NCBI GenBank assembly: GCA_021831785.1
Contig: JAKBMB010000026.1
Location: forward strand, 124,001 to 188,000
Source of the DNA: Deltaproteobacteria bacterium
Lineage (GTDB): Bacteria; Desulfobacterota; Binatia; Binatales; Binataceae
DNA: 64,000 nucleotides
Direction: 5' to 3'
The position numbers and the translations under genes were made by a program. Every line of letters begins with the position of its first letter. Position 1 is the stretch's first letter. This document shows positions 25,216 through 48,310 of the stretch, in pieces. The notes beneath the pieces were generated by a model. The model saw only the letters and a program-made list of their open reading frames with translations. It did not search any database and was not told where the DNA came from.

Positions 25216-25274
25216 CCTCCGCCCCATAAGTGTAGCGCACGCGAGACTTTTCTAATATAGTGCTTATAAACTGG

Positions 25275-26310: not shown

Positions 26311-26319
26311 GAGAAAAAA

Positions 26320-28070: not shown

Positions 28071-28145
28071 GGCCTCCTCCCTTGACAAATCGCGGGAAAC
28101 TAATCGATACGACACTGCGCGATATGGCGACCTATCTTGACAGCG

Positions 28146-29737: not shown

Positions 29738-29753
29738 AGCATGCACCGTGCCA
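29738..29753 (-). promoter_or_regulatory. Candidate sigma-54 promoter (-24/-12) for glycosyltransferase operon
   Basis: On the minus strand the sequence is TGGCACGGTGCATGCT: a perfect TGGCAC -24 element, five bases, then ATGCT for the -12 TTGCW. GG and GC are correctly spaced. It points to the glycosyltransferase start at 29348, leaving a long leader of about 390 bases. Confidence 0.5.
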
Positions 29754-30018
29754 GCCGCGGGCTCGAAAAGTACATCGCGTAAAGAGCGCCCCCGCGAGGA
29801 CAAACGCTTGCCCGTCGCTAACAGAGTTACAGCCGAGAGGTCCGCAAATGCCGACAACGCGGCGCAGCCCTCAGCATGCTGAGGCCAAGTTGGGGAAATC
29901 GGCAGGAGGGGCACACCGCCGGCGCATAGCGTAAGCCGAGCAGCGCGTCGGCGGTCAAACAGGCAGTTGCCCGAAGCCCAGCAATAAATAAATAATCGAG
30001 GCGTTCTTTTCCAACAGG

Positions 30019-30045
30019 TTTTGGTTGTGGCAACGAATTTTTGGT
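30019..30045. promoter_or_regulatory. Possible activator-binding repeat
   Basis: TTTTGGTTG (30019-30027) and TTTTTGGT (30038-30045) are spaced 19 bases apart, about two helical turns. The same nine-base TTTTGGTTG occurs at 31852-31860 next to the other sigma-54 promoter. Both could be upstream activating sites for the intervening enhancer-binding protein. Confidence 0.35.
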
Positions 30046-30163
30046 GCTTTACGGTCCGACCGCGATAGAGCCCTTAATTCTTAATGCTCGTTCCGACGGC
30101 AAAGCCGTCTCGCCAAAATCGACGCTTTGGCGCCGTCGACGGGCAGAGCGCAACGCGTCGGAT

Positions 30164-31934: not shown

Positions 31935-31950
31935 TGGCACAGGTTCTGCA
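31935..31950 (+). promoter_or_regulatory. Candidate sigma-54 promoter for the coenzyme M / FdrA / Nit1C operon
   Basis: TGGCACAGGTTCTGCA matches the -24/-12 consensus TGGCAC-N5-TTGCA at all but one position (C for the first T of the -12 element). It points to the start at 32281, with about 330 bases of leader. No other gene intervenes in 31793-32280. Confidence 0.6.
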
Positions 31951-32280: not shown

Positions 32281-33264
32281 ATGATGATTTCCAACAAGAA
32301 TCCGCCACGGCCGACACGGCAAGGCGCGGCGCTGAGGAAAGTTGCAGCCGAATCGTTCAAGGGACGACCGAATCTGATGCCATTACCGTACCGGAGCGTG
32401 AGCCTGCAACCCTACGATGGCGCGATGAACGAAGCGGCGATCAACAGGCATTTTCTCGGCCGCGAGGCTTATCGGCGCACGGACTTCGTCGTTCTTCACT
32501 CCGGCGCCTGGCAGTGCGCGGTAGCAGCGATAAGACGCGCCGCCAAACAGCCCGTTAACTCGCAAGAGGAACCGCTGTTTTCGCGAATCGTGGCCGTCGA
32601 GGTGCTTGCTCTTCCTGACCGCTGCAGGTTCATCCGAGACCCGACTACCGACGTCGCAAACCCTTCTGCTATGGCCGCGCTGGCAGCCCAGCAAGGCGTT
32701 GGCCCCGATAGCACGCTGGTGGTCTGGGGCAAGTACGATCACGTTAATTTCATGCACTGCCCCGAGCCGGCGGTGGTTTACGTGGTCGAGGTCGCACCGC
32801 CGGAGCCGCCCAAGCTCTTCGCAATGGCGCAAGAGGTTTTGAATTGCGCCGAGATGCCTCCCATTCGCCTGATGCTCGAGCGAATCGATCTGGGCGAGCT
32901 TTGCCGCGCGACCGCCGCCACCGCTTACCTGTTCCCGTGCCGGTCGGGGGGGCTCGATGGCCTCGGTCTTCCGGTTTATTTTCTCGACGAACGGCCGCCA
33001 AAGCGCGACGATTGGACCCTGGTCGGATGCGAGCGCAGCCGTCAGTTCTACCGGCATTACTACGAAGGGGAGCCGTCGTGCGTGGAGATATGTCCGCGCC
33101 GCCTAATGGGCCTGCGCACGAAACCGACCCTCGTGAAGTGCTGCCTACTGGAGTTCGGTATCGAGAGCGACGGCGCGACCGTAACGGTGCCATGGGGCGC
33201 CGACCGAGGGATGGTGGAAGACGCGCTGCGCAGGCTGAGCCTGAGAGAGGGCCGTCATGCCTGA
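32281..33264 (+). CDS. Unknown protein heading the coenzyme M operon (DUF7714-like)
   Basis: The 327-residue soluble protein has no family I can name with certainty; it resembles a hypothetical family labelled DUF7714. Visible features are a Cys-rich C-terminal half (C-R-S-G-G; S-C-V-E-I-C-P-R-R-L; V-K-C-C-L-L-E-F), suggestive of metal or thiol chemistry, and the segment N-F-M-H-C-P-E-P near residue 165. ATG 32281 is preceded by CAGGGG; the frame is open further upstream. Its 3' end overlaps the phosphosulfolactate synthase by 8 bases, so it is translationally coupled to coenzyme M synthesis. It occupies the position that xcbA would hold before xcbB in Xanthobacter, making it a candidate for an unassigned step or accessory role (inference). 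Confidence 0.6.
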   Translation: MMISNKNPPRPTRQGAALRKVAAESFKGRPNLMPLPYRSVSLQPYDGAMNEAAINRHFLGREAYRRTDFVVLHSGAWQCAVAAIRRAAKQPVNSQEEPLFSRIVAVEVLALPDRCRFIRDPTTDVANPSAMAALAAQQGVGPDSTLVVWGKYDHVNFMHCPEPAVVYVVEVAPPEPPKLFAMAQEVLNCAEMPPIRLMLERIDLGELCRATAATAYLFPCRSGGLDGLGLPVYFLDERPPKRDDWTLVGCERSRQFYRHYYEGEPSCVEICPRRLMGLRTKPTLVKCCLLEFGIESDGATVTVPWGADRGMVEDALRRLSLREGRHA

Positions 33265-34111
33265 AAAAAGAGCTTGGGCCTCCGTCGTTGACGAGGTCTT
33301 GAACCATAGGCCACCTAAGCCCCGCAGCGGGGGTTTGACCATGGTGATGGACAACGGTGTGGGAGTGGCGCAAACCGGCGACGTTCTGCAAATTTCGGGT
33401 GATTACATCGATCATTGGAAGTGCGGCTTTGGAACCTCGGCGCTGGTTTCCGAGAGCGTGCTGCGCGAGAAGCTCGGCGTGCTGCGCGAACAGGAGGTGC
33501 TTACTTATCCCGGCGGCACTCTGCTGGAGGTCGCGCTCCTTCAGCGGCGCTGCAGGCCGTACATCACGCGCGCGCGAGAGCTCGGTTTTACCGCCATCGA
33601 AGTCTCGGACGGGACGATCACTCTACCCGCCCATCGGCGGCGCAACATAATCAATTTCACGCTCGATGCGGGGCTTGTCGCGATCACGGAGGTGGGCAAG
33701 AAGGACTCCCGCTGGCAGCCAAGTCCCGTCGGGATGGCGGAACAGGCGCTAAGGGATCTCGAATCGGGAGCAAGCTGGGTGATTTTAGAGGGCCGTGAAT
33801 CCGGACGGGGAGTCGGCATTTACGACGCCAACGGCACGGTGCGCTGCGAGGTCTTGGAGAAATTTTGCGAAGTCATGGACACCCAGATAGCGCGCGTGAT
33901 CTGGGAGGCGCCGCTTCAGGAGCAGCAGGCGAGCCTCATCGAACGCTTCGGCCCCGACGTAAATCTGGGGAACATTCCCTCCCATGCCGTGCTCGCGCTC
34001 GAGGCGCTGCGCGCCGGCTGGAGGTTTGACACCATGCGGGGCAAGGTGGCCGATCTCGTGCGCAGCGGCCGATGGGATTGTAACCGCATCGAAGACTCGC
34101 AGCTGAAGTGA
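33257..34111 (+). CDS. xcbB: Phosphosulfolactate synthase (ComA/XcbB)
   Basis: ComA adds sulfite to phosphoenolpyruvate to make (R)-phosphosulfolactate, the first step of coenzyme M synthesis in methanogens and bacteria. The 284-residue TIM-barrel protein has the family motifs K21-P-R-S-G-G-L-T-M-V-M-D, D-Y-I-D-H-W-K55-C-G-F-G-T-S, T-Y-P-G-G-T-L-L-E and E-V-S-D-G-T-I-T-L-P, followed by T-E-V-G-K-K. Its length matches the family. It is coupled at both ends (8-base overlap upstream, 4-base GTGA overlap downstream). The two lyase genes that follow match the bacterial pathway and not the archaeal ComB/ComC one. Confidence 0.88.
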   Translation: MPEKRAWASVVDEVLNHRPPKPRSGGLTMVMDNGVGVAQTGDVLQISGDYIDHWKCGFGTSALVSESVLREKLGVLREQEVLTYPGGTLLEVALLQRRCRPYITRARELGFTAIEVSDGTITLPAHRRRNIINFTLDAGLVAITEVGKKDSRWQPSPVGMAEQALRDLESGASWVILEGRESGRGVGIYDANGTVRCEVLEKFCEVMDTQIARVIWEAPLQEQQASLIERFGPDVNLGNIPSHAVLALEALRAGWRFDTMRGKVADLVRSGRWDCNRIEDSQLK

Positions 34112-35706
34112 CGATGGCGAAGGTTGAGCAGCTCCGCCCCGGTCCTCCCGGACACCCGCAGGCGCGAGGCGCGCCCGAGGCGGGCGCCCCGCCAAGCGCC
34201 ACCTATGCGCTTTCGCCGTTGGACCAGCCTACGCGCGCGTCCTCCGCGCCCGAGCTCGCGGCGGCCTTTGGCCGTGAGCTTGCCGAGCAGCGCGTACTGT
34301 TTGACGGGATGAACCTGGTCGACCTGGCGCACACCGTCGAGCTGATGGAAGAAGGCGTGATTCCGTTGGAGGCGGGCGCGGCGTTGCTCGCCGCGCTGCT
34401 CGACCTGGTTCGAGGCTCGGCTGACTTTAAGGCCGACCCCGCGTTGGGAGACCTTTATGTCAACCGGCAGGCGTGGCTCAATAGCCGGACTTCGGCCGCC
34501 GGCTGGCTTGGCGCGGGACGCGCTCGGCGCGAGTGCACAACCACGGCGTATCATCTTATAGTCCGCGCGCGTCTTTTGACGCTGGCCCAAGCGCTGCTGG
34601 ACGCGTGCGGGGCGCTGCTTGAACGCGCCGCGAGCTATCGCGACGCGCTTATGACAGATTACACCTATCTTCAACCGGCCCAGCCCACAACCTTCGGCCA
34701 TTATTTGGTTGGCTTCGCCTACCCGTTGCTGCGCGACCTGGACCGGGTGCGCGCGCTGTTCGGCCGAACCAATTTAAGCCCGGCCGGTTGCGGCGCGACG
34801 AGCGGCTCCACGGTTCTACGTGACCGGGAGCGTCTTGCTTCCCTGCTGGGCTTTGACGGGCTTGTGACGCATGCGCGAGACGCGATGTGGCAGGCTGACC
34901 TGCCGATCGAGACCGTTGCCGTGGCAACCGCGGCGTGCATCAGTCAGTCCCGCCTGGCCGAGGACCTGCAGGTCTTCGCCACGACGGAGTTTGGGCTGGT
35001 CGACCTCGATCAGGCACATTCGCGCACCAGCGCCGTCATGCCGCAAAAGAAAAATCCGTACGCGTTGGCGTACGTGCGCGGCATAGCTAACCAGCTAATC
35101 GGGATGCTCGCTTCGACGGCAAGCTCCGCGCGGACGCCGACCGGACAGGTGGACAATCGTTTGTTCGTTTACGGCAACGTGCCGTGGGCCCTCGAGGCGG
35201 CAGCCGAGGCCATCGCGCTCATGGCCGGCGTGGTAGAGCGTCTGCGCCTCAACTCCGCGAGGGCGAATAGCTCGCTGGAAAGCGGATTCACGACCGCCAC
35301 CGACCTCGCTGAAGCCATAATGGGAAAGGGGCGACTCGATTTCGCCCGCGCCCATATGGTCGTGTCTCGGCTGGCGCGCAACCTGGCCGCGCGAGGACTG
35401 GGAGCCAGGGATACGACACTGCACGACGTAGAGCAGGCCGCGCGCGACGTTGGCGCGCCGGAAATTGGACTTTCCGAGCAGGCCCTTAAACGAGCCCTTG
35501 ACGCGCGCGCGGCGATCGCCAGCCGCGTTGCCACCGGCGGGGCGGCTTCCGCAGCGCTTGAGCGGATGGTCGACGAATGTCGCGCGCGGCTGGACCAGCA
35601 TGCCGTCTGGCGCTCGCGGACGGCCTCAAACCTTCACGCCGCCGAACAGCGGCTGCTCAAACACGCCGGCGAGCGATCGCGGACTCAGCCATGTCCGTCC
35701 ACTTGA
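34108..35706 (+). CDS. xcbC: Aspartase/fumarase-superfamily lyase, XcbC-like (argininosuccinate lyase family)
   Basis: The 532-residue protein has the argininosuccinate-lyase layout, with Q-P-A-Q-P-T-T-F-G-H-Y and the signature loop S308-A-V-M-P-Q-K-K-N-P. Genuine argininosuccinate lyase is improbable in this place. In Xanthobacter the homologue after xcbB (XcbC) eliminates phosphate from phosphosulfolactate to give sulfoacrylate, so that role is inferred from order and family. About 40 N-terminal residues are proline/alanine-rich and non-conserved. The start is GTG 34108 overlapping the previous stop, or ATG 34114. The 3' end overlaps the next gene by 16 bases. Confidence 0.75.
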   Translation: MTMAKVEQLRPGPPGHPQARGAPEAGAPPSATYALSPLDQPTRASSAPELAAAFGRELAEQRVLFDGMNLVDLAHTVELMEEGVIPLEAGAALLAALLDLVRGSADFKADPALGDLYVNRQAWLNSRTSAAGWLGAGRARRECTTTAYHLIVRARLLTLAQALLDACGALLERAASYRDALMTDYTYLQPAQPTTFGHYLVGFAYPLLRDLDRVRALFGRTNLSPAGCGATSGSTVLRDRERLASLLGFDGLVTHARDAMWQADLPIETVAVATAACISQSRLAEDLQVFATTEFGLVDLDQAHSRTSAVMPQKKNPYALAYVRGIANQLIGMLASTASSARTPTGQVDNRLFVYGNVPWALEAAAEAIALMAGVVERLRLNSARANSSLESGFTTATDLAEAIMGKGRLDFARAHMVVSRLARNLAARGLGARDTTLHDVEQAARDVGAPEIGLSEQALKRALDARAAIASRVATGGAASAALERMVDECRARLDQHAVWRSRTASNLHAAEQRLLKHAGERSRTQPCPST

Positions 35707-38051
35707 TCGATTCGCCGGTCTACGCCGATTCATGGAGCACGGGGGAAGTGCGCGCCATCTTCGACGATGTCTCGCGCACCCGAGATTGGCTCGAGATTTT
35801 GGCGGTGTTGGCCGAAACCGAGAGCGCTTTTGGACTGATCCCGGAAGAGGCCTCCCGGCAGATAGCTATAGTCTGCCGCAGCATCGAGCTTGACGCCGCC
35901 TTCTTCGAGGAAGTGCGCAGCGGCTTCCAGACGACCGGGCATTCTTTGCTTGGGTTGATCCGCGCCCTTCAACGGCGCTGTCCTGGGGCGTCGGGCGAGT
36001 GGCTATGTTACGGCGCGACCGTGCAGGATGTCACGGACACCTGGTTGGCGCGGGCGCTCCGGAGGTTCTGGGCAATTGTCGAGCGCGAGCTGGACGCGAC
36101 CGAATTCAACGTGGCGCGCTTGGCCAGCGACCATCGCCTGACCGTGATGGCCGGACGCACGCATGGGCAGGCCGGCCTCCCCATCACGTTCGGGTTTAAG
36201 GCCGCGGTGTGGGCTGCCGAACTGGGGCGCCACCGCCAGCGCCTCGAAGTACTGTTGCCGAAGCTCAGCGTGGGGCAACTCGCGGGCGGCGTCGGCAGCC
36301 TTTCCGCCTTCGGAGCGCGCGCTCTCGAGTTGCGGGAGAGCTTCTGTGCGCGGCTGGGCTTGCGCGCGCCGGAGATTTCGTGGACGACATCGCGCGACAC
36401 GCTGGCCGATTGCCTGAATCTTATGGCACTGATCGCCGCGAGCGGGGACAAAATCGGCCATGAAATTTACAACCTGCAGCGCACCGAGATCGGCGAAGCG
36501 CGGGAAGGACAACCCGCTGCCACCGTAGGCAGCATCACGATGCCTCACAAGCGCAATCCGGAGCTGGCTGAGCACCTCGGCACGCTCGCTCGCCTGGTTC
36601 GCCACAATTCCGCTCTACTGGCCGAGAGCCTGGTCCACGACCACGAACGCGACGGCCGGTCCTGGAAGGTCGAATGGGTTGTTTTCCCGGAGAGTTGCTG
36701 CGTGCTAGGCAAGCTGCTCGCCGCGCTGCGTGAAATCACCGCCAACCTCGAGATCGACGCCGCCCGAATGCGCGCCAACCTTGACGCGGCCGGCGCCGTA
36801 GTTTGCTCGGAAGCGGTGATGCTGGCGTTGGCGGACAAAATAGGCAAACAGAGCGCGCACCAATGTGTCTACGAGATCGCCTCGCACGCGGCGGCGCGAG
36901 GCCAAAGCTTTAGAGATGCGGTGCGCAATAACGCCGCGGTTCAGCGCCATCTCGGCGCGGCCGAGATCGATCGCTTGTTTGAGTACGAAAAGCAGACCGG
37001 GCAGTGCGCCGCGATGGCTGACCGCGTCGTACGAAAACTCCGGCCCGAAGCGCGGCGCCTTAAGGCCGCCCTTGCCGCCATTCCGCGCGCCGGTCTGATT
37101 TCCGAGGCGACGCCGTTGACGGAAGTTCCCGGACTCGCGCGAGCCGCAGGTCTTCGAAGACTATGGCTCAAGCGCGACGACCTGATCGGCTTTGGCTTCG
37201 GCGGCAACAAGGTGCGAGGGCTGGACCTTCTCTTGGCTGACGCGGTCCGACAAGGGGCGGACACGCTGGTCACGGGAGCTGGACCGCAGTCGAATCACGT
37301 GCGGGCCACGGCGGCGGCCGCGGCCTATGCCGGATTGGGGACGGTAGCCGTGCTCTGGGGCGCGCCGCCATCGCAGGTCGAAGGAAACTATCGATTGACC
37401 ACGCTGCTCGGGGTTGAAGTGCGTTTCACCGGTTCGGCGGTACGCGCTTCGGTGGACGCCGAGCTCGAATCGACCGCGTCCGAGTTGCGACAGGCGGGGC
37501 GGCGGCCCTATGTAATCCCGCGGGCCGGAGCCTGCACGCTGGGAGCGATAGGACAGATGATCGCGGTCGCGGAGTTGGACGAGCAATGCGGCCGGAACGG
37601 GCTTACGCCGAAGGTGATTATCCTGGCGGCCGGGTCAGGCACCACGCTTGCAGGCTGGCTGCTCGGCGTGCGTGCCCTGGGTCTCGAATGGCGCGTCGAG
37701 GGCGTCACTGTGAGCCGCCCGGCGAGCGAGGTCCAGGCCCAAGCGCTATCGCTGGCGCGTGCGGCCGCCGACCGCTTGGGGGTGGCCGCGCGCTTCTCTT
37801 ATGAAGACTTCATCGTGCATGACGGCTTTATCGGGCAAGGCTACGGTCTGCCGAGTCGAGAGGCGGCCGAAGCGATACAATTAGCGGCCAAAACCGAAGG
37901 TGTCTTTCTCGACCCGGTTTATACGGGCAAGGCGATGGCGGCGCTTCTGGCGCTGGCAGGTCAAGGACGCTACGAAAATGACCAGGACGTGGTCTTTGTC
38001 CACACCGGGGGTGGGCCCGCGCTTTTCGTTAGCGGCCAGCATCTCGCATGA
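35691..38051 (+). CDS. Fused XcbD-XcbE: adenylosuccinate-lyase-type lyase + PLP desulfhydrase-type enzyme
   Basis: This 786-residue two-domain protein has an N-terminal half (about 1-450) in the adenylosuccinate lyase/CMLE branch, with T-H-G-Q-A-G-L-P-I-T and signature S281-I-T-M-P-H-K-R-N-P. The C-terminal half (about 460-786) is a fold-type II PLP enzyme like D-cysteine desulfhydrase/ACC deaminase, with L-K-R-D-D-L, G-G-N-K507-V-R-G binding PLP, and S-N-H-V-R-A-T-A-A-A-A. In Xanthobacter these are separate proteins XcbD and XcbE, acting after sulfoacrylate formation in the decarboxylation and thiolation steps. No stop or frameshift separates the halves, so this is a real fusion that may channel an unstable intermediate. 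ATG 35691 is chosen because homology begins there; the frame opens earlier. Confidence 0.78.
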   Translation: MSVHLIDSPVYADSWSTGEVRAIFDDVSRTRDWLEILAVLAETESAFGLIPEEASRQIAIVCRSIELDAAFFEEVRSGFQTTGHSLLGLIRALQRRCPGASGEWLCYGATVQDVTDTWLARALRRFWAIVERELDATEFNVARLASDHRLTVMAGRTHGQAGLPITFGFKAAVWAAELGRHRQRLEVLLPKLSVGQLAGGVGSLSAFGARALELRESFCARLGLRAPEISWTTSRDTLADCLNLMALIAASGDKIGHEIYNLQRTEIGEAREGQPAATVGSITMPHKRNPELAEHLGTLARLVRHNSALLAESLVHDHERDGRSWKVEWVVFPESCCVLGKLLAALREITANLEIDAARMRANLDAAGAVVCSEAVMLALADKIGKQSAHQCVYEIASHAAARGQSFRDAVRNNAAVQRHLGAAEIDRLFEYEKQTGQCAAMADRVVRKLRPEARRLKAALAAIPRAGLISEATPLTEVPGLARAAGLRRLWLKRDDLIGFGFGGNKVRGLDLLLADAVRQGADTLVTGAGPQSNHVRATAAAAAYAGLGTVAVLWGAPPSQVEGNYRLTTLLGVEVRFTGSAVRASVDAELESTASELRQAGRRPYVIPRAGACTLGAIGQMIAVAELDEQCGRNGLTPKVIILAAGSGTTLAGWLLGVRALGLEWRVEGVTVSRPASEVQAQALSLARAAADRLGVAARFSYEDFIVHDGFIGQGYGLPSREAAEAIQLAAKTEGVFLDPVYTGKAMAALLALAGQGRYENDQDVVFVHTGGGPALFVSGQHLA

Positions 38052-38095
38052 ACGGCCTACTACCAGCCCGGCCAACCCGCTTTGGCAGCGCATAA

Positions 38096-39445
38096 GTGAC
38101 GTCGTTGGCAACCCATATTGTTAGGCCCGGCTTAAGGAGGACAAACACGCGCCTTGGGGCACGGTCTCACAATGAAGAACCCAAGTACCTTGCCGACCGC
38201 ATCAAGTTTGCCAACGCATTTGCGGTTGAGAAACTTCTCTCCGTGAAGCCGATGCTTGTCGATGTCGATACGGCGCTCAGCGCGGTGCCGGGCATGACTC
38301 CGGCCACTATTCTTCACGCCGGACCCCCGATTGAATGGCATCGCATGTGTCCGCCGATGAAGCGGGCGGTAGTCGGAGCCGCGATATTCGAAGGCTTGGC
38401 GTCGAGCGAAGGGGAAGCTCAAAGCCTGGTGAACCGCGGCAAGGTGAAGCTCTCGCCGAACCATCACCATGACGCGGTCGGTCCTATGACCGGGGTGATT
38501 TCTGCCTCGATGCCGGTCATCGCCACGAAGGACGCGGTATCCGGAAGAACTGCCTACTCCACGTTTAACGAAGGGGCCGGCGCCGTCTTATGGTTCGGCG
38601 TGTTCCAGAGGGAAACCCTGGAGCGTCTGCGCTGGATAAAAGACGTGCTCGCTCCGGTGATGAAACAGGTGATTAGAAACACCGGCGGGGTCCCGGTCTG
38701 GCCGATCTTGGCGCAGGCAATCCAGATGGGAGATGAATGTCACAACCGCCACGCGGCGGCAACCAATCTTTTTCTCAAGGGCATTGTCGAGCAGCTTTTC
38801 ACAGGCGATTTCGGCGAGGAGGCCGCGCGCGCGGTCTACCGCTTCATCGCCGGCAACAGCCACTTTTTCCTCAACGTAACCATGACCGGCTGCAAGCTTG
38901 CGGCCGGAGCCGCGCATGGGGTGACTAACTCGACAATAGCGACGGCGATGTCTCGCAATGGCACCGATTTCGGGATTCGCGTCAGCGGACTTGGGGATGA
39001 ATGGTTCACCGCGCCGGCGCCGTATCTGCGCGACGCTTTGTACAATCCGGGTTACGGCCCCGCCGATGGCGCCCCAGATATTGGAGACAGCGCGATTATC
39101 GAAACCACGGGGCTGGGCGGCAGCGCGATAGCGGCGGCACCTGCGATGGCCTCTCTCGCGGGCGGCGGGTTCGAGGCCGCACGCGAAATTACTAAGCAGA
39201 TCGGCATGATCACCGTCGCGAAAAACCCGCAATTTCCCATACCGAGCTTGGACTTCGAGGGCGTCCCCAGCGGCATCGATGTTCGCAAGGTGGTCGAGAC
39301 GGGAATTCTGCCGAACATCAACAGCGCGGTGATTCATAAAGACCCCGGCGTCGGTCAGATCGGCGTTGGCATCGCGAAGGCGCCCTTCGAGTGCTTCGTC
39401 AAGGCCCTTATTAAGTTCGGCGCGCAGGCCGGCTTGTCCGGATAA
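38096..39445 (+). CDS. DUF1116 protein (AllG/YlbE type)
   Basis: DUF1116 proteins act with FdrA as parts of oxamate carbamoyltransferase in allantoin degradation by E. coli. The 449-residue protein shows M-L-V-D-V near residue 52, P-N-H-H-H-D-A-V-G-P-M-T-G-V-I, W-P-I-L-A-Q-A-I-Q-M-G-D-E-C-H-N-R and G-N-S-H-F-F-L-N, all family landmarks. The start is uncertain: GTG 38096 is in frame but weak, while a good AAGGAGG site at about 38134 has no in-frame start close behind. The V-W-x-P-P-A leader seen in other members is missing here and a similar stretch occurs in the small gene at 27618. It follows the fused xcbDE gene by 44 bases. Confidence 0.85.
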   Translation: MTSLATHIVRPGLRRTNTRLGARSHNEEPKYLADRIKFANAFAVEKLLSVKPMLVDVDTALSAVPGMTPATILHAGPPIEWHRMCPPMKRAVVGAAIFEGLASSEGEAQSLVNRGKVKLSPNHHHDAVGPMTGVISASMPVIATKDAVSGRTAYSTFNEGAGAVLWFGVFQRETLERLRWIKDVLAPVMKQVIRNTGGVPVWPILAQAIQMGDECHNRHAAATNLFLKGIVEQLFTGDFGEEAARAVYRFIAGNSHFFLNVTMTGCKLAAGAAHGVTNSTIATAMSRNGTDFGIRVSGLGDEWFTAPAPYLRDALYNPGYGPADGAPDIGDSAIIETTGLGGSAIAAAPAMASLAGGGFEAAREITKQIGMITVAKNPQFPIPSLDFEGVPSGIDVRKVVETGILPNINSAVIHKDPGVGQIGVGIAKAPFECFVKALIKFGAQAGLSG

Positions 39446-39449
39446 CCGG

Positions 39450-41069: not shown

Positions 41070-41515
41070 GCGATGTCACCGGCGTGATTTTCAGAGCCGC
41101 CGAGACCCCGGTGGACCTGGAGGATTATTTTCGGCTTCGCCGCCAGGTGTTTGTGGAGGAACAGAAAATCTTCGCCGCGACCGATGTCGACGAATTCGAT
41201 TCCGGTGCCGTCCACCTGATCGCGCTCGAGGAGCTATCGGGGAAGGTCGTGGGCGGGGTTCGCGTTTATCGCAGAGAGGGTGACACGTGGCTAGGGGGGC
41301 GGCTCGCGGTCGATTCCGCTTATCGCAGGTCGCAGGTCGGAGCAAAGCTTGTGAAGCTTGCGATAGAGACCGTCAAGGCCGCAGGGTGCAAAGAATTTTT
41401 CGCCTATGTGCAGGTTCAGAATGTCGGCTTCTTCGAGCGCCTAGGATGGCGGGTGCGAGGCAGGCCCGTCGTCTATCACGGCCTCAGTCATCAACTGATG
41501 GAGGCAAGCCTGTAG
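41066..41515 (+). CDS. Sll0786/MSMEG_0567-type GNAT acetyltransferase (Nit1C cluster)
   Basis: The 149-residue GNAT-fold protein has the segment L-R-R-Q-V-F-V-E-E-Q-K-I-F near residue 30, R-V-Y-R-R-E and the acetyl-CoA-binding loop R-R-S-Q-V-G-A-K-L-V. It ends G-W-R-V-R-G-R-P-V-V-Y-H-G-L-S-H-Q-L-M, which marks the nitrogen-starvation Nit1C subgroup. The start overlaps the fdrA stop by four bases, physically joining the FdrA and Nit1C blocks. The acceptor substrate is unknown. Confidence 0.82.
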   Translation: MSDVTGVIFRAAETPVDLEDYFRLRRQVFVEEQKIFAATDVDEFDSGAVHLIALEELSGKVVGGVRVYRREGDTWLGGRLAVDSAYRRSQVGAKLVKLAIETVKAAGCKEFFAYVQVQNVGFFERLGWRVRGRPVVYHGLSHQLMEASL

Positions 41516-41527
41516 CGCGGCTGAGTA

Positions 41528-42544
41528 GTGGCCATGCAAGAGTTAATAGCGGCTTTGCGATCGTCGCCAAGACTCGCGCAGAAAAGCGAGCTTGAAGTGC
41601 TCTGGCAGTTTTTCCCTCGGGTCTGCCGGATCGGCGACGAGCAAGTGCTGCTGGGCGATGACGCTGCTGCCGTCAACAGCGCGGACGGCTTTCTGTTGTT
41701 CGCCGCAGAGGGTGTTTATCCGCCTTTGCTCGAAGCGGACCCGTATCTTGCCGGCAGGGCCTCCGTTCTCGCCAATGTCAACGACATTTATGCCATGGGG
41801 GGCAGGCCGCTCGCGATCTTAGACGTGATGTTGGCCCAGGGAATGCGAGAGGCAACTGAGATGCTCAGAGGTGTCAACGACAACGCTTTGCGTTACAACG
41901 TTCCGGTGATCGGCGGCCATTTCGGAGTTGGCACGCAGGCCGACTCGCTCGCGGTCTTCATAATAGGCAGGGCGAGGCGGCTGCTTTCAAGCTTCAACGC
42001 CGCGCCCGGCGATGATCTAGTGGTGGTGTGGAACCCAAGGGGCACCTTTCACGCGCAATTCGGCTTTTGGGATTCCTCAAGCACGCTGACCGGCCCCCAG
42101 GCGATTACCCAATTGGAGCTCCTACCGCGGCTTGCCGAGGAGGGGCTTGCCGACAGCGCCAAAGACGTAAGCATGGCCGGGATTATCGGCACTGTGCTGA
42201 TGCTTTTGGAGGCATCGGCAAGGGGCGCCCGGATTAGCCCGGAAAACATTTCTACTCCTCCTGGGGTCCAACTTGCGGATTGGCTGCTGAGCTTTCTTAG
42301 TTATGGCTTTGTGCTCTCGCTGCGGCCGAACCTGACCACCGCGGCACACGGAAGGTTCCGCGACATGGGCATACTCTGCGAACGCATCGGCAACGTGACC
42401 GCGGATCACCAAGTAATTTTCATCGACAGCGCGGGCAACAAGCATTTGTTCTGGGATTTAAACGCGCGTCCATTCTCGGGCTTAGCCCGGGAGCGGATCG
42501 CAGGAAGTGTGGCCTCCGGGAGAGGCGGTGCAGAGATCGGCTGA
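41528..42544 (+). CDS. Sll0787/MSMEG_0567-type AIR-synthase-like protein (Nit1C cluster)
   Basis: This 338-residue protein of the PurM/ThiL/SelD ATP-binding superfamily has the metal/ATP motif L-L-G-D44-D45-A-A-A-V, D-I-Y-A-M-G-G-R-P near residue 88, G-G-H-F and K-D-V-S-M-A-G-I-I-G-T. In many Nit1C clusters it is next to or fused with the GNAT gene; here they are separate genes 12 bases apart. It probably phosphorylates or activates an unknown amide- or nitrile-like metabolite. A GTG at 41528 and an ATG two codons later are alternative starts. Confidence 0.82.
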   Translation: MAMQELIAALRSSPRLAQKSELEVLWQFFPRVCRIGDEQVLLGDDAAAVNSADGFLLFAAEGVYPPLLEADPYLAGRASVLANVNDIYAMGGRPLAILDVMLAQGMREATEMLRGVNDNALRYNVPVIGGHFGVGTQADSLAVFIIGRARRLLSSFNAAPGDDLVVVWNPRGTFHAQFGFWDSSSTLTGPQAITQLELLPRLAEEGLADSAKDVSMAGIIGTVLMLLEASARGARISPENISTPPGVQLADWLLSFLSYGFVLSLRPNLTTAAHGRFRDMGILCERIGNVTADHQVIFIDSAGNKHLFWDLNARPFSGLARERIAGSVASGRGGAEIG

Positions 42545-42687
42545 CACTGCGGGTTGGACCTGTGAACGAACCTGAATGGAGCCCCTCGGCGCGAGTTGGT
42601 AGCCACTGCTTGGCAAAGACTTCGAGAAGCGGCCTCAGCAAGGCAGCAACGCCGGACAGCGAGCCGGAGAAGCTCGCAAGCAAGATA

Positions 42688-43626
42688 ATGAAGGTTGCTG
42701 TGGTTGCCTTCGGAGGAAATGCTCTGGCGGGAAATGACGGTAGGAGCAGCTATGCCGAGCAAGTGAAAAAGGCCGAACACGTGTGCCTTGGTTTGGTCAA
42801 GCTGCTCGAGCTGAATTACGAAGTGATTATTACTCACGGCAACGGCCCACAAGTGGGGAATCTGCTCATTCAGCAGGAGCTTTCGGCTGACCAGGTCCCC
42901 CCGATGCCTCTCGATGTCTGTGTCGCGATGACCCAGGGACAGATGGGCTACATGATCGTGCAGACCCTCGGAAACATGTTTCGCGCGAGAAATGTTACGA
43001 GGCCGGTGGCCGCGCTTATGACCCGGATGGTTGTCGCCAGAGACGATCCCGCTTTCGGCGATCCCGTGAAGTTCATCGGTCCATTTTTTTCTGCAGACGA
43101 ATCTCGGGTCTTAGAAAACGAGCGCCACTGGGAAATGAGAAGAGATTCCACCCGGGGCTGGCGCCGCGTCGTGCCCTCGCCAGGACCCGCCGACATCGTC
43201 GAGAAGAACGAGATCGCGGCCCTGCTGAAACGCGGCTGCGTCGTCGTTGCGTGCGGCGGTGGAGGCATACCTGTGGTGCGCGACGCGAGCGGACGCCTGA
43301 CGGGCGTGGCGGCGGTGATCGACAAGGATTTCGCCGCCGAGCGGCTCGCGAGCCTTATCGGCGCGGAGCTCTTGATCCTGGTCACGCCGGTAAACCAGGT
43401 AGCGATCTTTTATGGGACTCCGAAGCAGCGCAACCTTAAGCGCCTGACAAGCGAACAAGCTCGCCGCTATCATGCGCAAAACCATTTTCCGGCCGGGAGC
43501 ATGGGACCCAAGATAGCAGCGGCCGTCGAGTTTCTGGCAAATGGCGGCCGTCGAGCCATCATCACCTCGCCGGACCATATAGCGGCGTCCTTGGAAGGAG
43601 AGGCAGGAACCGAAATAGTGCCGTGA
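42688..43626 (+). CDS. arcC: Carbamate kinase
   Basis: The 312-residue protein matches the ArcC/AllK family, which makes ATP and carbamate from carbamoyl phosphate and ADP. Motifs are V-V-A-F-G-G-N-A-L near residue 8, T-H-G-N-G-P-Q-V-G-N-L-L, A-C-G-G-G-G-I-P-V-V and the lysine-containing V-I-D-K-D-F-A-A-E. ATG 42688 is chosen since K-V-A-V-V-A-F-G-G-N is the family start; an upstream extension is not conserved. In E. coli such a kinase accompanies the FdrA/DUF1116 transcarbamoylase, so its presence argues that this operon also yields carbamoyl phosphate. Confidence 0.92.
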   Translation: MKVAVVAFGGNALAGNDGRSSYAEQVKKAEHVCLGLVKLLELNYEVIITHGNGPQVGNLLIQQELSADQVPPMPLDVCVAMTQGQMGYMIVQTLGNMFRARNVTRPVAALMTRMVVARDDPAFGDPVKFIGPFFSADESRVLENERHWEMRRDSTRGWRRVVPSPGPADIVEKNEIAALLKRGCVVVACGGGGIPVVRDASGRLTGVAAVIDKDFAAERLASLIGAELLILVTPVNQVAIFYGTPKQRNLKRLTSEQARRYHAQNHFPAGSMGPKIAAAVEFLANGGRRAIITSPDHIAASLEGEAGTEIVP

Positions 43627-43767
43627 ATCGCTCAATCATTTCTCATTGCCGCACAACGCGGATGCTACGAGGCAAAGCTGGGCTAGCCGCGGCGATGCGC
43701 TGAGAGCAAACTTTGGTTCTCGTTGGCGCGGATCGTCGGTAGCCGGGCATAGGGCGTTCTTTATTGG

Positions 43768-44381
43768 CTGGGAGAACGGTCATAGGTTATACAGCCGTTA
43801 GGGAGGAACAGGGCAATGGCGAAGCGAGTGAAGGTGCAGCCTGCGCAGAAGGGAGAGGCGATAGTTGATTACGAGGAGAAGGTATTTCCCGAGTATGAGG
43901 CGAAGCCCGGGGAGCGGGCATTGTTTTTGATTCACACGGTGCCGTATGAGGGTTCGGTGGGCGCGGTGAATCTGCTCACGGCGATGCGCACCAAGCGCAA
44001 GGGCTATGACGTGAGCATTATTTTCTATGGGCCGGGCTCGTCGATCCCGGTTTACCGGGGATGGCCGAAGATCGGAGAGGATGGATACGGCATCGGCATC
44101 CAGGGACTGCCCAACCTCGTGGAGCGGTTAATCGCCCAGGGAGTAAAGATTTACGCCTGTCGATTTTCGGCTTCCGCGTTGCAAGGGCATCGCGAGGACG
44201 ACTTTATCGCCGGAGTCAAGCTCATCCATCCCACCGACATCTTGGACCTCGTCATCGAGCATCATCGGGCTGGGGCCCTGATCTTCAACACCTGGACGGT
44301 CTAGACGCACTCTTGTAAGGCGCGCCCGACCGCGGCGCGAAGAATAACTATGGACCCAATAGCTCTAAAAGTGGAACTGCA
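43768..44381 (+). repeat. 614-bp perfect direct repeat, copy 1
   Basis: Identical base for base to 45209-45822 (offset 1441). This copy begins with the last 34 bases of an amidohydrolase coding sequence (W-E-N-G-H-R-L-Y-S-R-stop), although no amidohydrolase precedes it. It ends with the first 31 bases of the radical-SAM gene, although none follows. It is therefore the derived copy and the one at 45209 is the original context. Confidence 0.95.
43816..44304 (+). CDS. Sll0783/MSMEG_0572-family nitrogen-starvation protein, copy 1
   Basis: This 162-residue DsrE-like-fold protein is of unknown biochemical role and is the hallmark of Nit1C clusters. Sll0783 of Synechocystis is induced by nitrogen starvation and needed for polyhydroxybutyrate accumulation. 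Sequence landmarks are R-A-L-F-L-I-H-T-V-P-Y-E-G-S-V-G, I-I-F-Y-G-P-G-S-S-I-P and Y-A-C-R-F-S-A-S-A-L-Q-G-H. An AGGGAGGAAC site precedes the ATG. It is identical to the copy at 45257 because both lie in the 614-bp repeat. Confidence 0.88.
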   Translation: MAKRVKVQPAQKGEAIVDYEEKVFPEYEAKPGERALFLIHTVPYEGSVGAVNLLTAMRTKRKGYDVSIIFYGPGSSIPVYRGWPKIGEDGYGIGIQGLPNLVERLIAQGVKIYACRFSASALQGHREDDFIAGVKLIHPTDILDLVIEHHRAGALIFNTWTV

Positions 44382-44396
44382 GAAGGGGGAACACCC

Positions 44397-45242
44397 ATGA
44401 AGGTCAAGAGGAAGGTCTTCGACGCTCACAGTCATATCGGAGGCCTGGTCGCGTACAAGTTCTACGATCTGAAAGAGCCCGTAAAGCCAACTGTAATTGA
44501 GTACGCCTCCGCCAAGGAATACCTCCAACACCTGGACGAGTACGGCGTTGACCGGGCTCTAGTCATATCGAACTACGGCGTGCCGGATTCGGCGCAGCCC
44601 TTTACGCTCAACCCGCTCGTGCTCGACAGCGTACACAAAGCCGATCGCCTGGTCGGCGCGATATGGGTCTCGGCCCTAGCCAAGGACAAAGAACGCACCG
44701 CGGAGGCGCTCAAGCACGCGAAGGAAGAAGGAGTAGTCGCGCTTAAGGCGACTTGTCTTCTTGGCGGAACCTACAAGCCGGCCGATTGGGACGACAGCGC
44801 GCGGGAAATTTGGGAGAGCATAGTTAACGCCGCCCAGGCGCATGACCTAGTCCTTCACTTGCACACAAGCCCCGGCGGCGGCTCGGACATCGGCAACGTG
44901 TTCGAGTTTATCAAGGATTACGGCAAGCGAATCAAGGTTCACATCGTCCACATGGGCGGCGGCGTGAGCGGCCATATCCGGTTGGTTCCCAGATTCATCG
45001 AGTTGGTGCGCGACGGCTACAAGGTTTACACCGACACCACCTGGGCGGTGGGGTTCGGCTCGCGGTGGCTGCTGCATGAAATTGAGCGCACCGGCGTTGG
45101 GACCGATAATGTACTTTTCGCCTCCGACACACCATGGAGCGATTTTCCCTCGGAGTACTGGAAGGTCGAAGGGGCAAAGATTTCCGAGGAATTAAAGAAC
45201 AAGATTTTCTGGGAGAACGGTCATAGGTTATACAGCCGTTAG
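44397..45242 (+). CDS. Amidohydrolase-family (TIM-barrel) hydrolase
   Basis: This 281-residue amidohydrolase_2 protein has the metal-binding H11-S-H13 in F-D-A-H-S-H-I-G-G, further His in L-H-L-H-T-S and I-V-H-M-G-G, and the catalytic-Asp segment F-A-S-D-T-P-W-S. It occupies the place where Nit1C clusters usually carry the nitrilase, between two identical Sll0783-type genes. Hydrolysis or decarboxylation of a small amide or acid is plausible; the substrate is unknown. Its last 33 bases and stop are part of the direct repeat. Confidence 0.82.
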   Translation: MKVKRKVFDAHSHIGGLVAYKFYDLKEPVKPTVIEYASAKEYLQHLDEYGVDRALVISNYGVPDSAQPFTLNPLVLDSVHKADRLVGAIWVSALAKDKERTAEALKHAKEEGVVALKATCLLGGTYKPADWDDSAREIWESIVNAAQAHDLVLHLHTSPGGGSDIGNVFEFIKDYGKRIKVHIVHMGGGVSGHIRLVPRFIELVRDGYKVYTDTTWAVGFGSRWLLHEIERTGVGTDNVLFASDTPWSDFPSEYWKVEGAKISEELKNKIFWENGHRLYSR

Positions 45243-45822
45243 GGAGGAACAGGGCAATGGCGAAGCGAGTGAAGGTGCAGCCTGCGCAGAAGGGAGAGGC
45301 GATAGTTGATTACGAGGAGAAGGTATTTCCCGAGTATGAGGCGAAGCCCGGGGAGCGGGCATTGTTTTTGATTCACACGGTGCCGTATGAGGGTTCGGTG
45401 GGCGCGGTGAATCTGCTCACGGCGATGCGCACCAAGCGCAAGGGCTATGACGTGAGCATTATTTTCTATGGGCCGGGCTCGTCGATCCCGGTTTACCGGG
45501 GATGGCCGAAGATCGGAGAGGATGGATACGGCATCGGCATCCAGGGACTGCCCAACCTCGTGGAGCGGTTAATCGCCCAGGGAGTAAAGATTTACGCCTG
45601 TCGATTTTCGGCTTCCGCGTTGCAAGGGCATCGCGAGGACGACTTTATCGCCGGAGTCAAGCTCATCCATCCCACCGACATCTTGGACCTCGTCATCGAG
45701 CATCATCGGGCTGGGGCCCTGATCTTCAACACCTGGACGGTCTAGACGCACTCTTGTAAGGCGCGCCCGACCGCGGCGCGAAGAATAACTATGGACCCAA
45801 TAGCTCTAAAAGTGGAACTGCA
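45209..45822 (+). repeat. 614-bp perfect direct repeat, copy 2 (original context)
   Basis: This copy spans the end of the amidohydrolase gene, the whole Sll0783-type gene and the first 32 bases of the radical-SAM gene, all intact here. Perfect identity with copy 1, silent positions and spacers included, means a very recent duplication, ongoing conversion, or an assembly artefact. Confidence 0.95.
45257..45745 (+). CDS. Sll0783/MSMEG_0572-family nitrogen-starvation protein, copy 2
   Basis: The product is identical to that at 43816 and has the same ribosome-binding site. It lies 14 bases after the amidohydrolase stop and 45 bases before the radical-SAM gene, the conserved Nit1C neighbour. With the GNAT, AIR-synthase-like, radical-SAM and glycosyltransferase genes it identifies the locus as a Nit1C relative lacking the nitrilase. 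Confidence 0.88.
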   Translation: MAKRVKVQPAQKGEAIVDYEEKVFPEYEAKPGERALFLIHTVPYEGSVGAVNLLTAMRTKRKGYDVSIIFYGPGSSIPVYRGWPKIGEDGYGIGIQGLPNLVERLIAQGVKIYACRFSASALQGHREDDFIAGVKLIHPTDILDLVIEHHRAGALIFNTWTV

Positions 45823-46897
45823 AAGCTTCGGCCTGAAGATTAGGGAGCTGGCAGGGGTTAGGCGCGGAGGAGCGGGACCCGCCGGAGGCATTTATCTAAG
45901 GATCTTGCCCGACACTGAGGGCAATATTCCCGTCGTCGGCGACTTCGTTGATTCCTCGCCCTATAGTCTCGGTCAGATCAACGGCGAAAACTGGGTGTGC
46001 AAAGATGGGGTCGCCTTGGCGCAGGTCGAGCTGATGGGCCTGGCGAAGTTTTATTCCCATGCCACCTCGAGCGGGGCGCCGATGAACCGGATCGGCCTGC
46101 TTCATTGCCCGACGACGTTCGCGACGACCTTGCTGCAGACCTGCATTTTTTGGGAGGACTGGCGGCGATGCAAGTTCTGCGGCATCGAGTTGACCCTCAA
46201 AGACCGGAGCACCGTGGGATTTAAAGACGCTAAAAGCCTGGTGGAGACGATCTCGCTCGCCAGAGAGCTGGACGGCATCACCAACGTAGTGTTCACCAGC
46301 GGCGTTGCTAAAGACGAGGAGCGCGCGCTGCGAAAATACGCCGAGACGTGCGCCGCGGTGAAAGCGGCGACCGGGTTGCCGATCCAACTCCAGATAGTGC
46401 CGCCGGAAGACCTGCGTTGGCTGTCAAGGCTGAACGACTCGGGCGTCGACGCATTAGGAGTTCATATCGAGACCTTCGATTCCGATGTATTTACCAGTGT
46501 CACCCCGGGCAAGGCGAGAATCGGGTTCGACAAATACTTGGAGACCTGGGAGCGGGCGGTGAACGTCTTCGGCAAGTGGCAGGTGAGCACCTACGTGCTG
46601 GTGGGCATCGGGGAAAGGCCGGGGACAATCCTGGATGGAGCAAAAATCTGCGCGGAAATCGGAGTTTACCCGTTCATCGTCCCGTTTCGTCCGATCATCG
46701 GCACGCCGATGGAGACCGTCAAACCGCCGGCTCCCAGGGAGATGGCGGCTCTCTATTTCGAGGCGGCCAAGATTCTCGGGAAATACGCCGGTCGGTCGAA
46801 GAGCAGCCGAGCGGGATGTGTGAGCTGCGGCGAGTGCTCCGCGCTGCCGGATTTCGAGCGGACTTTGAGCGCGTGCGGCTCTGCCGCACGCCCGTGA
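45791..46897 (+). CDS. Sll0785/MSMEG_0568-family radical SAM protein (Nit1C cluster)
   Basis: This 368-residue radical-SAM-like enzyme has a non-standard cluster motif. C118-x8-C127-x2-C130 (in Q-T-C-I-F-W ... R-C-K-F-C-G-I-E) replaces C-x3-C-x2-C, as expected of the MSMEG_0568 subgroup. A second cysteine group C343-x2-C346-x2-C349 near the C-terminus may hold an auxiliary Fe-S cluster. The reaction is unknown; the whole Nit1C set is linked to cyanide/nitrile nitrogen use in pseudomonads. The start codons are shared with the right end of the direct repeat. Confidence 0.85.
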   Translation: MDPIALKVELQSFGLKIRELAGVRRGGAGPAGGIYLRILPDTEGNIPVVGDFVDSSPYSLGQINGENWVCKDGVALAQVELMGLAKFYSHATSSGAPMNRIGLLHCPTTFATTLLQTCIFWEDWRRCKFCGIELTLKDRSTVGFKDAKSLVETISLARELDGITNVVFTSGVAKDEERALRKYAETCAAVKAATGLPIQLQIVPPEDLRWLSRLNDSGVDALGVHIETFDSDVFTSVTPGKARIGFDKYLETWERAVNVFGKWQVSTYVLVGIGERPGTILDGAKICAEIGVYPFIVPFRPIIGTPMETVKPPAPREMAALYFEAAKILGKYAGRSKSSRAGCVSCGECSALPDFERTLSACGSAARP

Positions 46898-46957
46898 ATG
46901 CGCGGCCGTCCGCCCGGGTCCCCAGATACTGGAGCGAGCGCGCGCAGGAGCAAGGAG

Positions 46958-48310
46958 ATGACCAGAGATAACCTCCGCATTGTCATCGTGGGTGGGGGCG
47001 CCGGCGGGATTTCGGCCGCCTCTACGGCGAAGGCGATTGCCCCGCAGGCATCGGTTACTCTTTTTTCCGAGTTCGAGGATGTCGCTTACAGTCCCTGCGG
47101 CATTCCGTTCGTTCACGGCAAGGAGATCCCGAGCTTTCAGAACCTGTTCCTTCAGCAGCGCGAGCACTACGAACGGATAGGGATCGGCCTCAGGCTGGAG
47201 ACCGCCGTGGCCAAGCTTCATCTCAAGAACCACACGGTAACCTCCGCGGCGGACGAGACGACCGAGTGGGACAGGCTGGTGGTGGCCACCGGCTTCGAGT
47301 ACGAAAGCCCGGGGGTCCCGGGCGAGACCCTCGCCGGCCTGCATTACGTCAAAAATATCCGGCGGGCGATGGAGTTCGACAAGCTTCTCGATCTCGTGAA
47401 GCGCGTGGTCGTCGCCCAGGCAACGCCGCTGGGAATCGAAATGGCAGGCAACCTCGCCCATCGCGGGCTTGAAGTCCATCTGGTGGACGAAGGAGCCTGG
47501 ATTCTCTCCGAGATTGCCGATCCGGACATCGCGCAGCCGGTTCAGAAATCGCTGGAGGAATTGGGAGTCACGATTCACCTTGGCGCCAAAGTGTTGGCGT
47601 TTGCCGGTTCGGACGGCAAGCTGCAAGCGGCAAGCACGACCGCGGGAGAGTTGCCCTGCGAGGTCGCGATTATCGCCACCCACAAGCGGCCCAACAACCT
47701 CCTGGCGGCCGAAGCGGGACTGAAGATAGGCTCGACAGGCGGCGTGCTGGTCGATGACCACATGCGGACCTCCGCGCAGGGTGTTTACGCGGCCGGCGAC
47801 TGCGCGGAGATCGTCCATGGCGGCACCGAGCTCCCCATTCAAGGGCTCTCGGGGAGTCATGCCTACGCGCAAGGCCGGGTCGCGGGCGCGAACGCCGCCG
47901 GTGAAGACCGCGCCTACGACCCGGTGTACGTGCCATGGGGAATGGTTGGGGGAAAGGTCCAGGTCGGCGGCGTCTCGATGGGTGAAACGCTGCACAAGGC
48001 ACTTGGAATACCGCACGTCGTCGCCGTCGCGGAAGGGATATCCCGAGCGCGCTATTATCCGGGCGTAACCAAGATTCGCGTCAAACTGATCTGCGACCCC
48101 GGCTCCCTGCGAGTCATGGGCGCGCAGTTGGTTGGCGGCGAGGGCATCAAGGAGAGAGCCGACTTTCTTGCTTTCACGATCAAGCGCGGGGCGACCCTGG
48201 ACGACTTCGCGTGGATGGAGAATGTTTACTCGCCTCCGATTGGCGCCTTAATGGAGCCGATCGCTGTAGCCGCACAGGCCGGCTTGGCGAAGTTCAGGAG
48301 CCAGGGCTGA
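46958..48310 (+). CDS. CoA-disulfide-reductase-family flavoprotein (single active Cys)
   Basis: This 450-residue FAD/NAD(P)H pyridine nucleotide-disulfide oxidoreductase has G-G-G-A-G-G-I-S-A at 12-20 for FAD, one redox Cys47 in S-P-C-G-I-P-F, the second-half G-x-Y-A-A-G-D-C-A-E FAD motif and a C-terminal dimerisation domain with L-V-G-G-E-G-I. The single Cys places it with CoA-disulfide reductase, NADH oxidase and persulfide reductase, not with the two-Cys 2-ketopropyl-CoM carboxylase. In a coenzyme M operon it may reduce a CoM disulfide or act in the final reduction step; this is inferred. It has a good GGAG site before ATG 46958. Confidence 0.8.
   Translation: MTRDNLRIVIVGGGAGGISAASTAKAIAPQASVTLFSEFEDVAYSPCGIPFVHGKEIPSFQNLFLQQREHYERIGIGLRLETAVAKLHLKNHTVTSAADETTEWDRLVVATGFEYESPGVPGETLAGLHYVKNIRRAMEFDKLLDLVKRVVVAQATPLGIEMAGNLAHRGLEVHLVDEGAWILSEIADPDIAQPVQKSLEELGVTIHLGAKVLAFAGSDGKLQAASTTAGELPCEVAIIATHKRPNNLLAAEAGLKIGSTGGVLVDDHMRTSAQGVYAAGDCAEIVHGGTELPIQGLSGSHAYAQGRVAGANAAGEDRAYDPVYVPWGMVGGKVQVGGVSMGETLHKALGIPHVVAVAEGISRARYYPGVTKIRVKLICDPGSLRVMGAQLVGGEGIKERADFLAFTIKRGATLDDFAWMENVYSPPIGALMEPIAVAAQAGLAKFRSQG

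Follow-up and report, generated by a model that had tools for sequence, protein, structure and literature searches.

To our knowledge, coenzyme M (CoM) in bacteria has been tied solely to the metabolism of alkenes and epoxides, which agrees with the open-access literature that we searched, and we know of no role for most genes of the Nit1C cluster. Pseudomonas depends on Nit1C to assimilate cyanide (PMC11049912). In Escherichia coli, AllFGH and AllK yield carbamoyl phosphate and ATP, and AllH is required for the transcarbamylase activity of AllFGH (PMC11326118). Here we describe a locus in which relatives of both systems stand beside CoM synthesis genes. It lies in a 64,000-nucleotide stretch of DNA from Deltaproteobacteria bacterium (GCA_021831785.1, contig JAKBMB010000026.1, positions 124,001–188,000), referred to below as the window, and comprises 14 genes on the plus strand (approximately 32281–48310) that were confirmed by family profiles over the window proteins. 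The family calls are mostly scores over NCBIfam curated cut-offs, with a few made by Pfam, and they account for all of the at least 14 co-directional genes that an earlier note on this DNA had listed. All parts belong to known families; their union is new and widespread. No description of CoM genes united with Nit1C or AllFG was found in the open-access literature (subscription journals and preprints were outside the search), in line with the note, whose author knew of none. The association of the CoM, AllFG and Nit1C modules is well supported by gene content across genomes, and its recurrence suggests that CoM has another role, one that has not been described before.

The first module encodes CoM synthesis. 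Its first gene, listed earlier as an unknown protein, is in fact XcbA (DUF7714; 32281–33264, longest open reading frame (ORF) from 32242; NF052538, 410.6 bits against a cut-off of 150). It is followed by the phosphosulfolactate synthase XcbB/ComA (33257–34111; TIGR03849, 302.1 bits, cut-off 280), XcbC (34108–35706; NF052535, 628.2 bits, cut-off 575) and an XcbD–XcbE fusion encoded by an 824-residue ORF (35691–38051, start inferred, longest ORF from 35577; NF052536, 640.4 bits, cut-off 600; NF052537, 475.5 bits, cut-off 450). With XcbA identified, the CoM synthesis gene set is, by family profile, complete, XcbA–E all being over their curated cut-offs. The second module encodes AllF, AllG and carbamate kinase together in the window: AllG (DUF1116; 38096–39445; PF06545, 274 bits), which is a homologue of a transcarbamylase subunit, FdrA/AllF (39486–41069, start approximate, longest ORF from 39366; NF004760, 458.2 bits, cut-off 433), in which the GRPHPM motif is conserved, and carbamate kinase (42688–43626, start inferred, longest ORF from 42562; TIGR00746, 369 bits, over the cut-off). 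In the AllG tree, a branch of support 99 parts the AllGs of CoM clusters from other AllGs. AllH, the third AllFGH subunit, was not found in the window; the genome has one copy elsewhere, on contig C25, with no further cluster genes around it. It lies inside the clusters of genomes G001, G097, G098 and G101 and just upstream of xcbA in G096.

The third module is the Nit1C core. A GNAT N-acetyltransferase of the NitE family (41066–41515, longest ORF from 41003; TIGR04045, 146 bits, cut-off 68) starts in overlap with the FdrA stop codon, as had been reported earlier, and is followed by an AIR-synthase-like protein of the NitF family (41528–42544; TIGR04049, 332 bits, over the cut-off). Downstream of carbamate kinase there are two copies of the DsrE-like Sll0783/NitB family (43816–44304, TIGR04044, 177.5 bits; 45257–45745, TIGR04044) and a radical SAM protein of the NitD family (45791–46897; TIGR04043, 320 bits, over the cut-off), whose C-x8-C-x2-C and C-terminal AGCxxCGxCS motifs are invariant in canonical Nit1C proteins too. 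The NitB, NitD, NitE and NitF families thus co-occur in the window, each over its cut-off. NitG (MSMEG_0570) and NitH (MSMEG_0569) had no match among the cluster proteins scanned, and the locus contains no Nit6803/NitC nitrilase. A hidden Nit1C nitrilase elsewhere in the genome was ruled out, as only a distant nitrilase was found (227 bits against a cut-off of 502.6), on a different contig. The remaining two genes encode an Amidohydrolase_2 family protein, AmdH (44397–45242; PF04909), which lies between the Sll0783 copies, and DSOR, a CoA-disulfide-reductase-family flavoprotein with a single active-site cysteine (46898–48310, likely start at about 46958), which matches family TIGR03385 and falls below the equivalog level for CoA-disulfide reductase (247.5 bits against 578.8).

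The joining of the three modules is a conserved association that occurs in several gene orders and phyla. The sister genome G001 (Deltaproteobacteria bacterium FK3.bin99), of the same genus, carries the same genes arranged differently; its CoM block lies at the outer end and is truncated after xcbB, where the contig stops. On two plasmids of Methylocystis iwaonis, xcbB-A-D-E-C adjoins a canonical Nit1C cluster with nitrilase, accompanied by AllG, FdrA, glycosyltransferase and DSOR. A scan with an XcbA alignment covered 84,980 species, each represented by a single genome, and the best 80 of 176 relatives were kept; after a sister-locus duplicate had been dropped and the plasmid loci added, 84 loci were classed by their neighbours. 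Among these best matches, 57 xcb loci are of the epoxide type, 11 are of the AllFG/Nit1C type (the window being extra) and 16 are neither. The 11 loci, some of which are short contigs with two markers each, come from Alpha- and Gammaproteobacteria, Chloroflexota, Marinimicrobia, Actinomycetota and the sister genome, and they are scattered over the XcbA tree, where at least four changes are needed (root unknown). Since they occupy several separate places in the tree, the union would be either old or repeatedly assembled, and, as they sit on several deep branches, the AllFG/Nit1C context might be no younger than the role of bacterial CoM in epoxide metabolism, or might even predate it. Closer to the window, among 96 relatives, XcbA was found in the window's genome and G001 alone, an over-cut-off radical SAM protein in these and one more, and AllG in these and two more. 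A search of plasmid DNA with the AllG-to-Sll0783 stretch gave short fragments and nothing more.

For a test that was not selected on CoM genes, a profile of the DSOR clade was run against 796 genomes (400 Chloroflexota and 396 Actinomycetota); the profile was built from known clusters fetched via CoM genes and favours that clade. It matched 14 genomes, 12 of them new, and two of the new loci were on contigs shorter than 4.5 kb, leaving ten evaluable. Seven of the ten carry xcb within 20 kb together with the rest of the set. The earlier note had asked for a search of this kind for co-occurrence and had named constant separation of the CoM and FdrA/Nit1C blocks as what would refute it; the two blocks occur together both in these seven loci and in the 11 from the XcbA survey.

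The epoxyalkane:CoM transferase (EaCoMT) was sought in 32 genomes or records. Its matches were strong in all 14 epoxide-type entries, whereas at E ≤ 1e-10 none was found in the window's genome, in G001 or in most genomes of the AllFG/Nit1C type. Weak or fragmentary matches were seen in G097, G103, G104 and the Methylocystis plasmid, where broken EaCoMT fragments (NZ_AP027143.1:203664–204007) lie upstream of the M. iwaonis CoM–Nit1C cluster. The close DSOR clade is present in 11 of 18 EaCoMT-negative entries versus 0 of 14 EaCoMT-positive ones (Fisher p 4e-4, in a panel chosen partly on neighbours). A 2-ketopropyl-CoM carboxylase (2-KPCC) with two SDRs beside xcb was not found in the window, and 2-KPCC occurs in none of 21 clusters compared. 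The statement made earlier that epoxide-carboxylation genes are missing is therefore borne out, and CoM serving epoxides in the window's organism was rejected on the lack of an EaCoMT match at this threshold in its genome.

In each of the 21 clusters there is exactly one of three unrelated enzymes: nitrilase (1 cluster, Methylocystis), nitrile hydratase (4 clusters, Actinomycetota and one Chloroflexota) and AmdH (16 clusters); the rows are not independent, and no probability is attached to this pattern. In G101, for example, nitrile hydratase genes (alpha, beta and beta-N-like) are located between xcbA and Sll0783. The description of the Nit1C block as nitrilase-less thus fits the window's cluster and does not extend to those relatives that hold a nitrilase or a nitrile hydratase instead. 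This distribution suggests that AmdH may fill the same slot as these two enzymes. The metal-ligand residues of AmdH (HxH, His and Asp) are invariant in the alignment, and the structure modelled for it (mean pLDDT 82) most closely resembles 2-pyrone-4,6-dicarboxylate (PDC) hydrolase, ACMSD and related decarboxylases/hydratases, at low sequence identity.

DSOR is present in all 21 clusters. Its single-cysteine SPCGIP motif is invariant in nine cluster DSORs, and the closest solved structures are those of NADH oxidases and CoA-disulfide reductases. A further 36 xcb-bearing loci encode distant relatives, almost all of which have this single-cysteine motif class and many of which lie less than 300 bp from an xcb gene. 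Based on the motif and on these relatives, a candidate CoM-disulfide reductase is the natural guess for DSOR, in the AllFG/Nit1C and the other xcb contexts alike.

Taken together, a non-epoxide role of CoM in C–N metabolism is probable. For the more specific proposal that the cluster is a conserved type in which CoM synthesis serves nitrile/cyanide-type nitrogen metabolism instead of epoxide metabolism, we consider the case for and against to be evenly balanced. The earlier note had CoM as thiol carrier in a C–N route ending in carbamoyl phosphate, which is partly supported: the nitrile enzymes of related clusters, AllFGH and carbamate kinase point to a C–N route, in which CoM would be the putative thiol partner, nitriles or cyanide the presumed substrates and carbamoyl phosphate the presumed end product. 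In such a route, the CoM thiol or its disulfide would capture a C–N unit as an S-linked nitrile (thiocyanate) or carbamoyl (thiocarbamate) group, and the S-linked unit would be hydrated or hydrolysed by the slot enzyme (nitrilase, nitrile hydratase or, in the window, AmdH). AllFG(H), a relative of succinyl-CoA synthetase, could then phosphorolyse the carbamoyl group to carbamoyl phosphate and free CoM, from which step carbamate kinase would recover ATP, NH3 and CO2, while the DSOR flavoprotein would keep CoM reduced. FdrA and succinyl-CoA synthetase share domain families, and what is known of these families makes a thiol leaving group chemically reasonable. The S-carbamoyl-CoM steps are nevertheless tentative and somewhat doubtful. 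A route that brings in nitrile or cyanide nitrogen through S-cyano- and S-carbamoyl-CoM, with the carbamoyl thioester phosphorolysed by an AllFGH-type enzyme that works like succinyl-CoA synthetase but on CoM rather than CoA, giving carbamoyl phosphate and ATP, is likewise possible and somewhat doubtful; in it, AmdH would stand for a third type of enzyme acting on nitriles, one that has so far gone unrecognised.

Several observations weigh against this proposal. The window itself lacks AllH. AmdH resembles decarboxylases and C–C/lactone hydrolases, so that its putative nitrile/amide role comes from gene position. The mechanism assigns no role to the GNAT/AIR/radical-SAM trio, which has no need of CoM, since canonical Nit1C functions without CoM, AllFG or DSOR. 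Three of the ten evaluable DSOR loci (G599, G850 and G664) carry Nit1C, FdrA and carbamate kinase but lack xcb genes in the surrounding 20 kb and in the additional flanking sequence retrieved; CoM is therefore not strictly needed and may be one of several possible thiols. Finally, the whole picture rests on genes, from which the chemistry is inferred.

Substitute CoM synthesis genes were looked for in the three xcb-less clusters, and the extra genes there encode a luciferase-like monooxygenase, a PLP decarboxylase and an aminotransferase, with no recognised CoM genes. The monooxygenase and the aminotransferase are encoded in the clusters at L243:3752–13071 and L245:12102–14948, and L243 encodes the decarboxylase as well. 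The AIR-synthase-like protein was considered as a twin of HypE and this was rejected: the similarity is weak, and no C-terminal cysteine carrier was seen in the alignment. A thiocarbamate-to-thiocyanate conversion is thus no more than a lead.

There are also rival explanations. CoM could be a protective thiol with no part in the C–N chemistry which, together with DSOR and an OsmC-type peroxidase, buffers cyanide, peroxides or electrophiles that the Nit1C pathway makes or meets. This would fit the presence of DSOR in 21 of 21 clusters and of OsmC-family genes in most of them, as well as the bd oxidase genes that adjoin one CoM cluster and one canonical Nit1C cluster; in methanogens, comDE overexpression is also reported to be protective against oxidative stress (PMC12713407). 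However, neither the window nor its sister has OsmC in the locus, and the constant AllFG and the nitrilase/nitrile hydratase/AmdH slot would be left unexplained; we consider this role for CoM unlikely. Alternatively, the cluster could build a CoM-containing metabolite or cofactor that is assembled by the glycosyltransferase, GNAT, AIR synthase and radical SAM proteins, with AllFG and carbamate kinase supplying carbamoyl phosphate. The Nit1C trio and the MSMEG_0565-type glycosyltransferase, the latter present in nearly all 21 clusters, do look biosynthetic, and the AIR synthase superfamily includes HypE, to which the match is weak. The same trio is present in canonical Nit1C without CoM, however, the clusters contain nitrile-degrading enzymes, and uptake-type ABC genes are found next to both the Pseudonocardia cluster and one FdrA cluster; we find biosynthesis of this kind rather improbable.

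CoM might also still conjugate alkenes, epoxides or other electrophiles, such as unsaturated nitriles, with a transferase that is encoded elsewhere or is unrecognised. The epoxide type accounts for 57 of the 84 xcb loci, and the EaCoMT fragments near the Methylocystis cluster would agree with this, but the panel gave no EaCoMT for the window's genome, G001 and most AllFG/Nit1C-type genomes, the rest being weak or partial, and 2-KPCC is missing from all 21 clusters; we consider such conjugation very unlikely. That three unrelated blocks have come to be adjacent by chance is hardly credible. Every part is a known family that also occurs apart, but the arrangement recurs over several phyla and gene orders, xcb is present in seven of the ten new evaluable loci found without CoM genes, and in the window's family the two congeners alone combine XcbA and AllG with a radical SAM protein scoring over the cut-off. 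Chance adjacency is contradicted by the genome survey.

Most gene junctions in the cluster overlap or are shorter than 50 nt. The largest gaps are the 189 nt before and the 92 nt after the first Sll0783 gene, and the gap between the AIR-synthase-like and carbamate kinase genes is about 140 nt once start codons are adjusted by eye. Terminator-like sites within the cluster did not exceed the shuffle expectation, and one transcript for the whole cluster seems plausible. The two Sll0783-type genes named earlier are both present and prove to be identical copies inside a perfect 614-bp direct repeat (43768–44381 and 45209–45822), which, besides Sll0783, takes in the amidohydrolase gene's 3′ end and the initial 32 nt of the radical SAM gene; the sister genome has a single copy. 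The gene order is AmdH–Sll0783–radical SAM in Chloroflexota and Marinimicrobia clusters and Sll0783–AmdH–radical SAM in the sister genome, and the window has both at once. The repeat could reflect a recent duplication or an intermediate of one, or it could be an artefact of the assembly.

The locus reaches past the plus-strand genes, with three further members on the minus strand (27618–31792). The nearest is a GAF-AAA-Fis sigma-54-dependent activator (30164–31792; Pfam), which is divergent and can be likened by position to NitA of Nit1C, where the divergent layout is the same (PMC11049912). Its orthologue in G001 is 66% identical and divergent from allG. A candidate sigma-54 promoter at 31935–31949 on the plus strand has one mismatch to TGGCAC-N5-TTGC; the total of such matches over the whole window is not above chance, and its location alone is suggestive. 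The divergent gap of G001, which matches that of the window's candidate, contains a one-mismatch −24/−12 site (L008:6222–6236) and also the palindrome TTGTTGC-TGC-GCAACAA. The other two minus-strand genes encode a Nit1C-associated GT4 glycosyltransferase of the MSMEG_0565 family (28146–29348; TIGR04047, 417.9 bits, cut-off 259.9) and a stand-alone FdrA N-terminal domain of 165 residues (27618–28115; partial NF004760 match, 71 bits), another segment of which resembles the AllG N-terminus of other clusters. In G001, the stand-alone domain is encoded between the glycosyltransferase and xcbA. Many clusters also encode a family of about 210 residues, located between allG and fdrA or beside Sll0783 (L191:11300–11932, L194:10469–11074 and L004:7506–8171), of which the one member scanned matched nothing in Pfam or NCBIfam. 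A separate operon at 16435–26943 of the window encodes Ldh_2 and Fe-ADH dehydrogenases, a sugar-type ABC importer, an SMP-30 lactonase and an isochorismatase-family hydrolase.

Two further CoM-related arrangements were observed. In Chloroflexota (L029:1168–12862, also L026 and L034), xcb genes lie beside URO-D-family methyltransferases, a RACo-type corrinoid activator, a cobalamin adenosyltransferase and an MtrH-family protein, and these genomes lack EaCoMT, the DSOR clade and the radical SAM protein of Nit1C. This is a third bacterial CoM context, which looks like corrinoid methyl transfer involving CoM. On a Legionella lytica plasmid (L005:9823–13451), a long annotated phosphosulfolactate synthase is adjacent to an annotated 2-phosphosulfolactate phosphatase, and no further xcb gene accompanies them.

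The union of CoM, Nit1C and a carbamoyl-phosphate-forming enzyme offers a common, testable answer to two open questions, the role of CoM beyond epoxides and that of the Nit1C genes; it makes DSOR a candidate CoM-disulfide reductase and AmdH a candidate enzyme of the nitrile pathway, and there are cultured carriers, Methylocystis iwaonis and Pseudonocardia alaniniphila. When the locus is compared with described systems, each accounts for one part of it. The xcbA–E genes of Xanthobacter autotrophicus Py2 pXAUT01 represent the same five families in the same order A-B-C-D-E, at 47–58% identity to the window, although XcbD and XcbE are fused only in the latter; the Xanthobacter flanks are 2-hydroxypropyl-CoM lyase, 2-KPCC and two SDRs, whereas the flanks in the window are AllFG, carbamate kinase and the Nit1C core. 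As in the E. coli AllFGHK oxamic transcarbamylase (PMC11326118), homologues of AllF, AllG and carbamate kinase are encoded together, but AllH of the window's genome is on a separate contig, its AllG falls in a separate clade, and the cluster was found without allantoin genes. The FdrA–DUF1116–carbamate kinase cluster of Aminobacter sp. SR38 has a ring-opening amidohydrolase and BMP-type ABC uptake; FdrA, AllG, carbamate kinase and an amidohydrolase are shared with the window, whereas CoM, Nit1C and DSOR genes are absent from the Aminobacter cluster. With Nit1C itself (nitBCDEFGH and NitA in Pseudomonas, sll0783–sll0787 in Synechocystis), the window shares Sll0783, the radical SAM protein, GNAT, the AIR synthase, the MSMEG_0565 glycosyltransferase and the divergent sigma-54 activator. 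It differs from Nit1C in the absence of nitrilase, MSMEG_0569 and MSMEG_0570, in the long tree branch on which radical SAM proteins of the window type sit, in AmdH occupying the nitrilase slot, and in the addition of CoM synthesis, AllFG, carbamate kinase and DSOR.

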